NCBI RefSeq assembly: GCF_916619195.1
Contig: NZ_CAKAKL010000001.1
Coordinates: 1,302,001-1,366,000 of the forward strand
Direction of reading: 5' to 3'
DNA: 64,000 nucleotides
Source: Inquilinus sp. Marseille-Q2685
Lineage (GTDB): Bacteria; Pseudomonadota; Alphaproteobacteria; DSM-16000; Inquilinaceae
Positions 40,445-44,840 of the stretch are shown piece after piece. The notes beneath the pieces were generated by a model. The model saw only the letters and a program-made list of their open reading frames with translations, was not told the DNA's origin and ran no database searches. Both the position numbers and the translations under genes were made by a program. Every line of letters starts with the position of its first letter. Position 1 is the stretch's first letter.

Positions 40445-41893
40445 TTAGGCTGCGGCCGCGATGCTCAGACCCAGCCGCTCGGCGACGCCGGCGCCATAGG
40501 CCGGGTCGGCCTTGGCGAAATGCGCGATCTGGCGGCGCTGGATCGCTTCCGGCACCGAGCGCATCGAGCCGGCGATGTTGTCCATCAGCCGGGCGCGGGC
40601 GCCGTCATCCAGCAGCCGGAACAGGTCGCCGGCCTGGCTGTAGTCGTCGTTGCCGGCGCGGTGGTCGTAACGGTCGGCCGCGCCGCGCAGCGGCAGCGCC
40701 GGCTCGGCCGCCGCCGGGTCCTGCCGCGGCCCGCCGAAGCTGTTCGGCTCGTAGTTCACCGCACCCTTGCCGTTGTCGTCGAAGCGCATCGCCCCGTCGC
40801 GCTGGTAGTTGCTGGCCACGGCGGCGTGCGGCCGGTTGACCGGCAAGAGGCCGTGGTTGCCGCCCAGGCGGTAGCGATGCGCGTCGCCATAGGCGAAGAG
40901 CCGGCCCTGCAGCATCTTGTCCGGGCTGAAGGAGATGCCGGGCACCACATTGGCCGGGCTGAAGGCCGACTGCTCGACCTCGGCGAAGTAGTTCTGCGGG
41001 TTGCGGTTCAGCACCAGCTCGCCGATCTCGATCAGCGGGTGCGCCGCATGCGGCCAGACCTTGGTCAGGTCGAACGGGTCGATCGGGAAGGCCTCGGCCT
41101 CCGCCTCGGTCATGATCTGCACCGACACCGTCCAGGCCGGGAAATCGCCGTCCTCGATCGAAGCGAACAGGTCGCGGGTGGCATGGTCGGGATCGATGCC
41201 GGTCATCGCCTGCGCCTGCTCGGCGGTGAAGTTCTGGATCCCCTGCCTGGTCTTGAAATGATACTTCACCCACACCCGCTCGCCAGCGGCGTTGATCCAG
41301 CTGAAGGTGTGGCTGGAGAAGCCGTCCATGTGGCGGTAGCTGCGCGGCGTGCCGCGGGCGCTGAACAGGATGGTGAACTGGTGCCGCGTCTCCGGCGACA
41401 GGGACGCGAAGTCCCACACCGCCGTCGGGTCCTTCAGGTTGGGGGCCGGGTTGCGCTTCTGGGTGTGGATGAAGTCCGGGAACTTCAGCGGGTCGCGGAT
41501 GAAGAAGATCGGCGTGTTGTTGCCGACGATGTCGTAGTTGCCGTCCTCGGTGTACAGCTTCAGGGCGAAGCCGCGCGGGTCGCGCTCCGCATCGGCCGAG
41601 CCCTTCTCGCCGCCGACGGTGGAGAAGCGCAGGAACACCTCGGTCTCCTTGCCCACCTCGGACAGGAACCGCGCCTTGGTCCATTTCGTGACGTCGGCGG
41701 TGACGCGGAAGGTGCCGTAGGCGCCGGCGCCCTTGGCGTGCACCACCCGCTCCGGGATCCGCTCGCGGTTGAAATGCGCCAGCTTCTCGATCAGGTGGAA
41801 GTCCTGGATCAGCACCGGGCCGCGCGGGCCGGCGGTCAGGGAGTTCTGGTTGTCCGGAACCGGGGCGCCGAAGGTCGTCGTCAGGGTGGTCAT
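40445..41893 (-). CDS. katA: Monofunctional heme catalase KatA
   Basis: Catalase of 482 residues, small-subunit (clade 3) size, that splits hydrogen peroxide to water and oxygen. The active-site histidine is in [18 protein letters not shown], the asparagine in [15 protein letters not shown], and the heme-ligating tyrosine in [18 protein letters not shown]. No signal peptide, so cytoplasmic. Co-directional with and downstream of hemH, which makes its heme. A palindrome resembling an OxyR site lies 80–95 bases upstream, and oxyR is 2 kb away. Confidence 0.96.
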
Positions 41894-41971: not shown

Positions 41972-41988
41972 CTTATCGGCGCGATAAG
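41972..41988. promoter_or_regulatory. Palindrome upstream of katA, possible OxyR site
   Basis: CTTATCG-GCG-CGATAAG is a perfect inverted repeat. With an upstream ATCG (41962–41965) it gives ATCG-N7-TTAT-N7-ATAA at 11-base spacing, which partly matches the OxyR pattern ATAG-N7-CTAT-N7-ATAG-N7-CTAT. The fourth unit does not match. Confidence 0.45.
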
Positions 41989-42155
41989 TGAACGCCGCGT
42001 TCGACCAGGGGCAGCAGGTCGCGGCGATGCCGGTGCAGCCGCAGCAGCAGCTCCGGCGGCAGGTCGCCCTGCACGCCGACGCGGCCGTTCTCGAGGGTGA
42101 GGCTGGCGCCGTGGCGGGCGAGATCGGCGAGCAGCGCGTTCAGGGAAGGACGCAT
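41973..42155 (-). CDS. Small TubC-N-like docking-domain protein
   Basis: Protein of 60 residues. The pattern LNALLADLARHGASLTLENGRVGVQG … LPPELLLRLHRHRRDLLPLV matches, from memory, the TubC N-terminal docking domain found at the ends of nonribosomal peptide synthetase subunits and as stand-alone small proteins. No synthetase is nearby. Its ATG overlaps the hemH stop (ATGA), so it is co-translated with hemH. The C-terminal end overlaps the katA upstream palindrome. Role unknown. Confidence 0.6.
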   Translation of the reverse strand: MRPSLNALLADLARHGASLTLENGRVGVQGDLPPELLLRLHRHRRDLLPLVERGVHLSRR

Positions 42156-43156
42156 CAGGCCGCCCTCCGCATCGGCCCGGCGCCGAGGGCTTGCCGTACC
42201 TGGGCCGCCAAGCCGGCGACATAGGCCGGGTGCACGCCGACGGTCGGGACGCGGACGAAGGACGGCACGCCGGATGCTCCGGCCACGGCCCGGTATTCGC
42301 GATCAAGCTCGACCAGTGTCTCGGAATGCTCGGACACGAAGGCGATCGGCACCAGCACCAGGCCGACGCCGTCGCGCCCGGCCTGCTTCACCTCCTCCTC
42401 CGTGTCCGGCTTCAGCCATTCCTGCGGCGTCACCCGGCTCTGGAAGGCGATGCGCCAGTCGAGGCCGGGAATGCCGAGCGCCGCCACCACCGCCTCGGCC
42501 GAGGCGCGGACCTGGCCGGGATACGGGTCGCCGGCCTGGACGATCGGCAGCGGCAGGCCATGGGCGGTGAACAGCAGCCGGTGCAGCCCGCCAGCGGCCG
42601 GCCAGGCGCGCCGGATCAGGTCGGCCTGGGCGGCGATGAAGCCGGGCTCCGCCGGCGCCGCCTCGACCGCCCAGGTCGGGGCGGACAGGCCGGCGGCGCG
42701 GGCGGCCGCGGCCCAGTCGGTCAGGGCCGACCGGGTGGTGGTGGTCGAATATTGCGGATACAGCGGCAGCAGCACGATCTCGTCCGGCCGCCACGCCCGC
42801 AGCTGCGCCGCCGTCTCGGCCGCGAAGGGGTGCCAATAGCGCATCGCCACGAAGGACCGGACCTCGCCGAGGTCCCCGAGGCGCGCCGCCACCGCCCGGC
42901 CCTGCGCCCGGGTCTGGGCCAGGATCGGCGAGGCGCCGCCGAGCTGTCGGTAGATTTCGGTCGCGACCGGCGTGCGGCGCCGGGCAATCAGCCGCGCCAC
43001 CACCGCCCGCGGCAGGCGCGGCAGGCGGATGATCTCGGGGTCGGAGAAGAAGTTGCGCAGGAACGGGCCGACGGCCTCGAGCCGGTCCGGGCCGCCGATC
43101 TGCAGCAGCACCAGGGCGATCCGGCGGCGGGCGACGAGGACGGGCAAAGGCGGCAT
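42155..43156 (-). CDS. hemH: Ferrochelatase
   Basis: Ferrochelatase of 333 residues, which inserts ferrous iron into protoporphyrin IX, the last step of heme synthesis. Family signatures include VLLQIGGPDRLEAVGPFLRNFF, VLLPLYPQYSTTTT, the catalytic histidine in LLFTAHGLP, and VPIAFVSEHSETLVELD with the conserved acidic/His face. Membrane-associated in most bacteria. It is upstream of the TubC-N-like gene and katA on the same strand, and has overlapping ICE and OxyR-like boxes in its promoter. Confidence 0.95.
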   Translation of the reverse strand: MPPLPVLVARRRIALVLLQIGGPDRLEAVGPFLRNFFSDPEIIRLPRLPRAVVARLIARRRTPVATEIYRQLGGASPILAQTRAQGRAVAARLGDLGEVRSFVAMRYWHPFAAETAAQLRAWRPDEIVLLPLYPQYSTTTTRSALTDWAAAARAAGLSAPTWAVEAAPAEPGFIAAQADLIRRAWPAAGGLHRLLFTAHGLPLPIVQAGDPYPGQVRASAEAVVAALGIPGLDWRIAFQSRVTPQEWLKPDTEEEVKQAGRDGVGLVLVPIAFVSEHSETLVELDREYRAVAGASGVPSFVRVPTVGVHPAYVAGLAAQVRQALGAGPMRRAA

Positions 43157-43208
43157 GGCTGGCTCCTGTGGCTGGCCCGAGCCTCTCGCACCGCTTCGAT
43201 AAGATCCA

Positions 43209-43245
43209 ATCGATTAGAACTATTCTAAAGATAGAGAAATCTTAT
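43209..43245. promoter_or_regulatory. Irr iron-control (ICE) box overlapping an OxyR-like box, upstream of hemH
   Basis: TTAGAA-CTA-TTCTAA (43214–43228) is a perfect inverted repeat matching the ICE motif bound by Irr, the heme/iron regulator of alphaproteobacteria. Overlapping it, ATCG (43209), CTAT (43220), ATAG (43231) and TTAT (43242) stand at exact 11-base steps, agreeing with the OxyR consensus ATAG-N7-CTAT-N7-ATAG-N7-CTAT at 14 of 16 positions. CGATAAGAT (43197–43205) and ATCTTATCG (43239–43247) flank the region as an inverted repeat. The site is 53–90 bases upstream of hemH. Confidence 0.68.
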
Positions 43246-43332
43246 CGCGCCTCGCGGCAGCAGCCGCTTTTCGTCTCCGGCCGCCCGGCGCCGCGATGAT
43301 ACGATCGAGCTCTGCCGATGGAGCGAGCTTCG

Positions 43333-43833
43333 ATGCCGCTGAGCTACCCGTACAAGCCGAGAATAGGGCTAATGGTGCTCGCCACCCTGTTCTTTGCGGT
43401 CTGTGCCGCGGTTCTCGGGAGCAAGGCCGCCACCGCCGACCACGGAGTTGTGCTGAACGGCTTGGTGGAGCTCTCGGCGGGCGGGGCCCGGACCTTCTAT
43501 TGGGTCCTTGCCGGGCTCTCTGCCGCGTTCGTGGCGGCGGGCCTGTTCAGCATCGCCGTGGGGTTGTTCAGCCAACGGTCGCTGCAGGTGTCCGACTCCG
43601 AGCTGTCGGCGCCGAGCTATCTCTGGGCCAGCGCGCCGATCGTCGTTTCGATCTCCGACATCAGCGAGATCCGACTGCGGACGATTTCCGGGCAGCGCAT
43701 GCTGCTGGTCCGGCACCGTGGCGGTGCGCTCAACATCATGGAGAAGATGCTCCCCGACCGGGCCAGCTTCGAGGCCGTGCACGCCGCGATCGCCGAACGC
43801 GCCGGACAAGCCGGCAAGCTTGGCGGACGATAA
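43333..43833 (+). CDS. Membrane protein with PH-like C-terminal domain, unknown function
   Basis: Protein of about 166 residues. Two hydrophobic segments are predicted (LMVLATLFFAVCAAVLG and FYWVLAGLSAAFVAAGLFSIAVG), followed by a soluble C-terminal part of about 85 residues that looks like a small β-rich (PH-like) domain: LQVSDSELSAPSYLW, ISDISEIRLRTISGQRMLLVRHRGG. The ATG at 43333 has GGAG upstream; 43318 is an alternative. Divergent from hemH and upstream of oxyR; family not identified. Confidence 0.7.
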   Translation: MPLSYPYKPRIGLMVLATLFFAVCAAVLGSKAATADHGVVLNGLVELSAGGARTFYWVLAGLSAAFVAAGLFSIAVGLFSQRSLQVSDSELSAPSYLWASAPIVVSISDISEIRLRTISGQRMLLVRHRGGALNIMEKMLPDRASFEAVHAAIAERAGQAGKLGGR

Positions 43834-43889: not shown

Positions 43890-44840
43890 ATGACCCTCTC
43901 CGGCCTCTCCCTCCGCGATCTCGAATATCTCGTCGCCGTGGCCGAGCTGCGCCATTTCGGCCAGGCGGCGGAGCGCTGCGGCGTCAGCCAGCCGGCGCTG
44001 AGCATGCAGATCCGCAAGCTGGAGGAGACTCTGGGGCTGGCGGTGTTCGAGCGCGGGCCGAAGACGGTGCTGGTGACGGCCAAGGGCGAGGTCATCCTCG
44101 CGCAGGCCCGCCGCGTGCTGCTGGAGGCGCGGCGGCTGATGGCGCTGGCCCAGGAGCTGGATGCGCCGCTGTCCGGCCCGCTGGCGGTGGGCGCGATCGA
44201 GACGCTGGGCCCCTACCTGTTCCCGCACATGCTGCGGCCGCTGCGCCGGGCCTTCCCGAAGCTGGAGCTGGTGCTGCACGAGGGCCGCACCTACCAGCTG
44301 GTCGAGGCGCTGCGGCACGGCGCGCTGGACCTGGTGTTCCTGTCGCTGCCGGTGGCCGACCCGCAGATCGCGACGGCGCCGCTGTTCTTCGAGCCCTTCG
44401 TGCTGGCCCAGCCGGCCGACCGGCCGGTGGCGGCCGACGGCGCCGCACGGGTCGCCGAGCTGCCGCGCGACGGTCTGCTGCTGCTGGAGGACGGGCACTG
44501 CCTGCGCGACCAGGCGCTGGAGGTCTGCGGCACGCTGGGCGCCGGCGGCAAGCGCCACAGCACCAGCCTGGAGACCTTGCGCCAGATGATCGCGGCCGGC
44601 GCCGGCTACAGCCTGTTCCCGCGGCTGGCGACGCTGGGTGAGGCCAGCGTCGGCGGCCTGGTCAGCTATGCCGGCTTCGACGGCACGGCGCCGGGCCGCA
44701 TGGTCGGCCTGGCCTGGCGCCAGAGCGACCCGCGGGCCGAGCAGTTCGAGTCGCTGCGCCGCGTCCTGCTCGACCACCCGCCGCCCGGCACAAGGGTGGC
44801 GGCGGAGGGTGGGCCCATGAAAAACGGGGGCACGGCGTGA
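43890..44840 (+). CDS. oxyR: Hydrogen peroxide-sensing LysR-type regulator OxyR
   Basis: Regulator of 316 residues. The N-terminal LysR helix-turn-helix reads FGQAAERCGVSQPALSMQIRKLEETLG. The peroxide-sensing pair is C204 (LEDGHCLRDQ) and C213 (ALEVCGTLG), with the same spacing as C199/C208 in E. coli OxyR, which form a disulfide on oxidation and switch on catalase and related genes. Candidate sites lie before hemH and katA, 0.7 and 1.9 kb away. Confidence 0.95.
   Translation: MTLSGLSLRDLEYLVAVAELRHFGQAAERCGVSQPALSMQIRKLEETLGLAVFERGPKTVLVTAKGEVILAQARRVLLEARRLMALAQELDAPLSGPLAVGAIETLGPYLFPHMLRPLRRAFPKLELVLHEGRTYQLVEALRHGALDLVFLSLPVADPQIATAPLFFEPFVLAQPADRPVAADGAARVAELPRDGLLLLEDGHCLRDQALEVCGTLGAGGKRHSTSLETLRQMIAAGAGYSLFPRLATLGEASVGGLVSYAGFDGTAPGRMVGLAWRQSDPRAEQFESLRRVLLDHPPPGTRVAAEGGPMKNGGTA

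Follow-up and report, generated by a model that had tools for sequence, protein, structure and literature searches.

A candidate Irr box within the conserved OxyR-type operator of a ferrochelatase-catalase operon in Inquilinus

Related systems and the hemH2-katA locus

In Rhodobacter sphaeroides, the Irr box TTAGAAATATTCTAGA was bound by Irr in EMSA (PMC6956336), and Irr boxes are also present at the peroxide-related genes mbfA and ccpA (PMC3413700). The Irr regulon of this bacterium, which lies outside Rhizobiales, is very small; Irr and OxyR bind to separate isc-suf promoters (P3 and P5, respectively), and Irr does not bind katE (PMC3413700, PMC6956336). In Escherichia coli, hemH is induced by OxyR, which sustains heme synthesis (PMC8115020, citing Mancini and Imlay 2015). 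In the divergent oxyR-peroxidase promoters of proteobacteria, the OxyR site lies between oxyR and the target operon. E. coli is not known to have Irr.

We analyzed a stretch of 64,000 nucleotides (the window; G000:C1:1302001-1366000) of the 7.29-Mb genome of Inquilinus sp. Marseille-Q2685, and the closest relatives compared were other Inquilinus species. On the minus strand, hemH2, encoding an accessory ferrochelatase of 333 aa (42155-43156; Pfam PF00762, TIGR00109), is followed by a 60-aa ORF that overlaps the hemH2 stop codon (41973-42155) and by the co-directional katA, encoding a heme catalase of 482 aa (40445-41893; Pfam PF00199). The 60-aa ORF is conserved and has a weak likeness to the TubC N-terminal docking domain (TubC_N; E 1.2e-4, 22.5 bits, below the cut-off of 26). 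The palindrome CTTATCG-GCG-CGATAAG (41972-41988), 5' of katA, overlaps the 3' end of this ORF, and its minus-strand sequence CTTATCGCGCCGATAA is found in all six Inquilinus loci. On the plus strand lies oxyR (43890-44840; 316 aa; LysR, Pfam PF00126 and PF03466). Its product has OxyR as the best NCBIfam model, at 260.3 bits and under the curated cut-off of 329, and contains the OxyR redox cysteine pair, nine residues apart, in CLRDQALEVC; a plasmid search returned mainly matches of LysR similarity. Between the operator described below and oxyR, the window species has a 171-aa membrane-protein-like ORF (43318-43833, plus strand), which has no Pfam match and, in NCBIfam, a weak STM3941-family match below the cut-off; it was not found at the locus in the five other Inquilinus species. 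The first-pass annotation had placed oxyR and katA at one locus; both are indeed there, and the hemH2-katA order together with oxyR is retained in all six species.

The same annotation had named the target gene hemH. It does encode a ferrochelatase, but it is an accessory copy linked to katA: the genome carries two ferrochelatases (53% identical), and the main heme-pathway gene is the hemE-linked hemH at G000:C5, which directly follows a reading frame resembling hemE when read by eye. Both this hemH and the hemH2-katA gap are devoid of an Irr-type ICE (7-8 mismatches) and of an OxyR site (6-10 mismatches). The idea that the hemH2-katA-oxyR cluster is widespread was rejected, since among 80 hemH loci fetched only two records, both from Inquilinus, have katA adjoining hemH, and none of the 78 others does. 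One record titled Mycobacterium sp. KBS0706 (L095) has a hemH2-katA-oxyR locus that is clearly that of Inquilinus, and thus this entry probably carries the wrong name or is of mixed content. By analogy, a sensible reading of the role of hemH2 is heme supply for catalase under peroxide stress. This resembles E. coli, in which ferrochelatase is under the peroxide-sensing OxyR and heme supply continues in H2O2 stress (PMC8115020). Unlike in E. coli, the gene in Inquilinus is that of a second ferrochelatase, linked to katA and beside oxyR, and the hemE-linked hemH is separate, presumably for housekeeping.

The OxyR-type operator and its conservation

The intergenic region contains a 51-bp AT-rich island at 43197-43247 (CGATAAGATCCAATCGATTAGAACTATTCTAAAGATAGAGAAATCTTATCG). 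When the window was scanned for the OxyR pattern, consisting of four tetranucleotides with an 11-bp period (ATAG-N7-CTAT-N7-ATAG-N7-CTAT), the best match (14/16) was at 43209-43245 on the minus strand, with ATAA-N7-CTAT-N7-ATAG-N7-CGAT in the hemH orientation, and the second best match reached 11/16. This reproduces the score and the period that had been annotated. In the same orientation, the full operator reads ATAA-GATTTCT-CTAT-CTTTAGA-ATAG-TTCTAAT-CGAT. The island also has an outer inverted repeat (CGATAAGAT/ATCTTATCG), which the first-pass annotation had overlooked, as it had the second hemH and the non-conservation of the ICE in relatives. The first arm (43197-43205) reads ATCTTATCG on the minus strand and would be the -10 region of hemH2; the second arm (43239-43247) has ATCTTATCG on the plus strand and would be an ancestral -10 region of the divergent oxyR. 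A sigma-70 promoter scan at the island gave no consensus match, and thus the suggestion that CTTATCG on both sides may represent divergent -10 elements is a guess only.

In all six Inquilinus species, the OxyR tetranucleotides match at 13-14 of the 16 positions and the flanks are fixed. The block common to the six is, in the hemH orientation, CGATAAG-N6-CTATCT ... ATCGATTGGA.CTTATCG, and the CTTATCG core of both outer arms is invariant. A genus-wide search with the OxyR pattern found the hemH2 site in every one of the six genomes, versus no match for the reversed control; at one mismatch, the same search found the divergent promoter between ahpC-ahpD and a second oxyR, again in 6/6 genomes. 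This second oxyR paralogue, divergent from ahpC-ahpD (L185, 534-2804, and orthologues), has an OxyR-type operator conserved in the six species, and two OxyR systems are present in Inquilinus. At the hemH2 locus, oxyR starts about 15 bp beyond the conserved block in two species (G001 and G004), directly abutting the site, and a repeat element of about 140 bp lies between the block and oxyR in three others (G002, G003 and G005). The repeat is palindromic (TGTCATGCCCGGG...CCCGGCAATGACA) and has the same oxyR-proximal position in the three species (the oxyR-hemH gaps of L009, L011 and L033).

Since the element is kept in all six species, is located between oxyR and hemH2-katA, and has a pattern that recurs at ahpC, there is good evidence, separate from the arguments of the first-pass annotation, that it is an OxyR operator, and this assignment is strongly supported. 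The arrangement is like that of the divergent oxyR-peroxidase promoters of proteobacteria, except that the window species has the 171-aa ORF before oxyR and the ICE within the operator. Activation of hemH2-katA by OxyR under H2O2 is, in our judgment, highly probable. The 51-bp island would serve as promoter and operator for hemH2-(60-aa ORF)-katA, a peroxide-defence operon that H2O2-oxidised OxyR would activate; catalase would then be produced along with the ferrochelatase that would load it with heme. In the ancestral layout, OxyR would also control its own divergent gene.

The Irr palindrome and Irr-type sites in other genomes

Within the operator lies the Irr/ICE-like palindrome TTAGAA-CTA-TTCTAA (43214-43228). 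It had been described as a perfect ICE, which is correct for the 6-bp arms (6-3-6 inverted repeat); against the full 7-3-7 consensus TTTAGAA-N3-TTCTAAA (TTTAGAANNNTTCTAAA), however, ATTAGAACTATTCTAAA at 43213-43229 matches at 13 of 14 positions, with one mismatch. The observation of two overlapping sites, this palindrome and the OxyR pattern, is confirmed in the sequence. The ICE is nearly identical to TTAGAAATATTCTAGA of R. sphaeroides. Its arms occupy the second and third OxyR spacers, and the third OxyR tetranucleotide forms its centre. Because 11 of the 12 arm bases fall within the N7 spacers, the ICE could be gained without any change to the OxyR tetranucleotides. The possibility that the ICE is a by-product of the OxyR dyad symmetry was rejected, since the centres differ (43221 versus 43227). 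The centres of the ICE arms are 4-7 bp from those of the tetranucleotides, roughly half a helical turn, which could allow the two regulators to reach the DNA on different faces of the helix. Steric competition between Irr and OxyR would be likely, and co-occupancy is also compatible with the sequence.

The palindrome is present at the hemH2 operator of only one of the six Inquilinus species, the window species. In the five others, the ICE has 8-11 mismatches in the same register and, at best, 5-7 in any register. Conservation at orthologous promoters supports, rather than defines, an Irr box. In a nucleotide tree of katG and irr, the window species groups with G001 (support 0.97) within the genus, and in a protein tree the node joining the two is poorly resolved; G001 is the probable sister. 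As the palindrome occurs in the window species alone, which is nested with the ICE-lacking G001 inside the genus, it is most simply read as a recent gain in the lineage of the window species.

The dual-regulator reading of the first-pass annotation depended on the genome having irr, and the gene is present: its product scores 207.6 bits with the NCBIfam IrrA equivalog model (cut-off 150) and 182.4 bits with the Irr model (cut-off 170), and contains the HHH motif. An irr gene was found in all six Inquilinus species; in the window genome, irr itself has no ICE (7 mismatches). The Fur-family genes of this genome number four, namely, irr and three others, including a Fur/Mur homologue (C9) and a divergent member (C2). 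A further ICE box, TTTAGAATRATTCAAAA / TTTAGAACGACTCAAAA, is located 25-41 bp upstream of the katG start (G000:C6:73647-73663; L006 1500-1516) and is kept in 6/6 Inquilinus species (L053-L057). Its conservation predicts control of the catalase-peroxidase by Irr. No OxyR site was found at katG (6-9 mismatches).

In four further irr-bearing genera, ICEs with at most one mismatch precede genes for rubrerythrin (G006, G007 and G008), a Dps-like ferritin (G015; L193, around 1501) and a peroxiredoxin (G006; L195, around 1501). In G006-G009, an ICE lies directly downstream of irr (around 1501 in L189-L191 and around 201 in L192); in L189-L191 it precedes the rubrerythrin gene, and in G009 (L192) the contig ends at this site. 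A near-ICE, ACTAGAACCATTCTAAA, was also seen at katG of G015. The one other ICE match, in G016, is not near a gene of this kind, and the best irr match of that genome is weak and Fur-like (E 1.3e-8). Among the ten ICE sites in irr-bearing genomes that are at least 90% complete, nine are before peroxide or iron-detoxification genes; the remaining one, in G009, is the counterpart of the G008 site. These sites resemble the TTAGAA-N3-TTCTA-type boxes at peroxide and iron genes (mbfA, ccpA and isc-suf P3) of R. sphaeroides (PMC3413700, PMC6956336). In contrast to R. sphaeroides, both predicted boxes coincide at one promoter in the window species, and a second Irr-type box is at katG. Since the sole additional ICE of the genome is that of katG, and the ICEs of the sister genera are at peroxide-defence genes, the Irr half of the dual-regulator reading is credible, and binding of Irr at the new hemH2 box is somewhat more probable than its absence. 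Thus, of the reading first proposed, the OxyR half has held up well, and the Irr half is plausible for a palindrome seen in a single species.

Alternative explanations and a possible gating of peroxide defence by iron

Under a first-order Markov model, 64 kb of sequence is expected to contain about 2e-5 ICEs with at most one mismatch and about 1.4e-4 OxyR patterns of at least 14/16. In the whole genome, two ICEs with at most one mismatch were found (hemH2 operator and katG), versus none for the reversed control. At three mismatches, the genome-wide count (17) falls below that of the reversed control (41); thus, only near-perfect matches are meaningful. For the entire genome, the Markov model predicts about 0.002 ICE sites at the stringency of at most one mismatch, but it under-predicts AT-rich patterns roughly 14-fold (for the reversed control at three mismatches, 41 were found versus 3 predicted), and therefore about 0.03 sites per genome is the fairer expectation. 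Because the genome has only these two sites and the one at katG is kept throughout the genus, the ICE at hemH2 is unlikely to be noise. One could still suppose that OxyR alone matters and that the palindrome resembles an Irr box by chance, having arisen through neutral drift in the N7 spacers of the AT-rich operator, where no constraint acts. Its occurrence in one of six species, against a background of nearly invariant OxyR tetranucleotides and flanks, would fit such drift, as would the placement of nearly all arm bases in spacers at no cost to OxyR. However, both patterns are improbable even within the AT-rich island: in 100,000 rounds of dinucleotide shuffling of its 51 bp, an ICE with at most one mismatch arose 27 times and an OxyR pattern of at least 14/16 arose 14 times. 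Furthermore, the two ICE sites found, against an expectation of about 0.002-0.03, are both at heme-catalase genes. We regard this explanation as rather unlikely.

The palindrome could also be read by another Fur-family protein (C9 or C2) instead of Irr, because the katG box also parses as a Fur/PerR-like 7-1-7 repeat and the genome has the additional family members. This is improbable: the Irr candidate is above both the IrrA and Irr cut-offs whereas no protein reaches the PerR cut-off, the same ICE adjoins irr in G006-G009, and the sequence matches the EMSA-proven Irr box of R. sphaeroides (PMC6956336). Still less credence, and very little in absolute terms, is given to the view that the element is mainly a divergent promoter pair, in which CGATAAG/CTTATCG would serve as back-to-back -10 elements and the boxes for the regulators would be incidental. 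Although CGATAAG...CTTATCG is invariant in the six species, the inner CTATCT and ATCGATTGGA are just as invariant, and at ahpC the OxyR pattern is found with no outer repeat.

The reading that we favor, and consider reasonably probable, is an OxyR-activated hemH2-katA operon with a newly acquired Irr box interleaved in its operator. In the window species only, iron shortage would let Irr accumulate and bind the new box, which overlies the promoter/OxyR region. Irr would then hold down hemH2-katA, and probably katG likewise, and synthesis of heme catalases would be avoided when iron is lacking; repression by Irr under iron limitation is proposed by analogy. Since an Irr-type site has arisen within the OxyR operator, iron status could gate peroxide defence.

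For the family as a whole, we tentatively suggest, with a little less than even confidence, that Irr has come to gate peroxide defence (rubrerythrin, Dps-like ferritin, peroxiredoxin and katG) according to iron status, and that the window species extends this regulon via an Irr box of recent origin within a conserved OxyR operator, which would put a catalase-plus-ferrochelatase operon under joint control by iron and peroxide. What is new here is the apparent gain of an Irr box within a conserved OxyR operator. The locus also draws attention to a second ferrochelatase that, from its position, appears dedicated to catalase. If the suggestion is true, the locus would be a case of natural regulatory rewiring, in which the sister species keep the ancestral OxyR-only operator and the window species has OxyR plus Irr, and the gain of iron control over the catalase operon would be testable with natural alleles. 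Furthermore, it would suggest that Irr outside Rhizobiales follows a simple rule, with a small number of sites that are all located at genes for peroxide defence.
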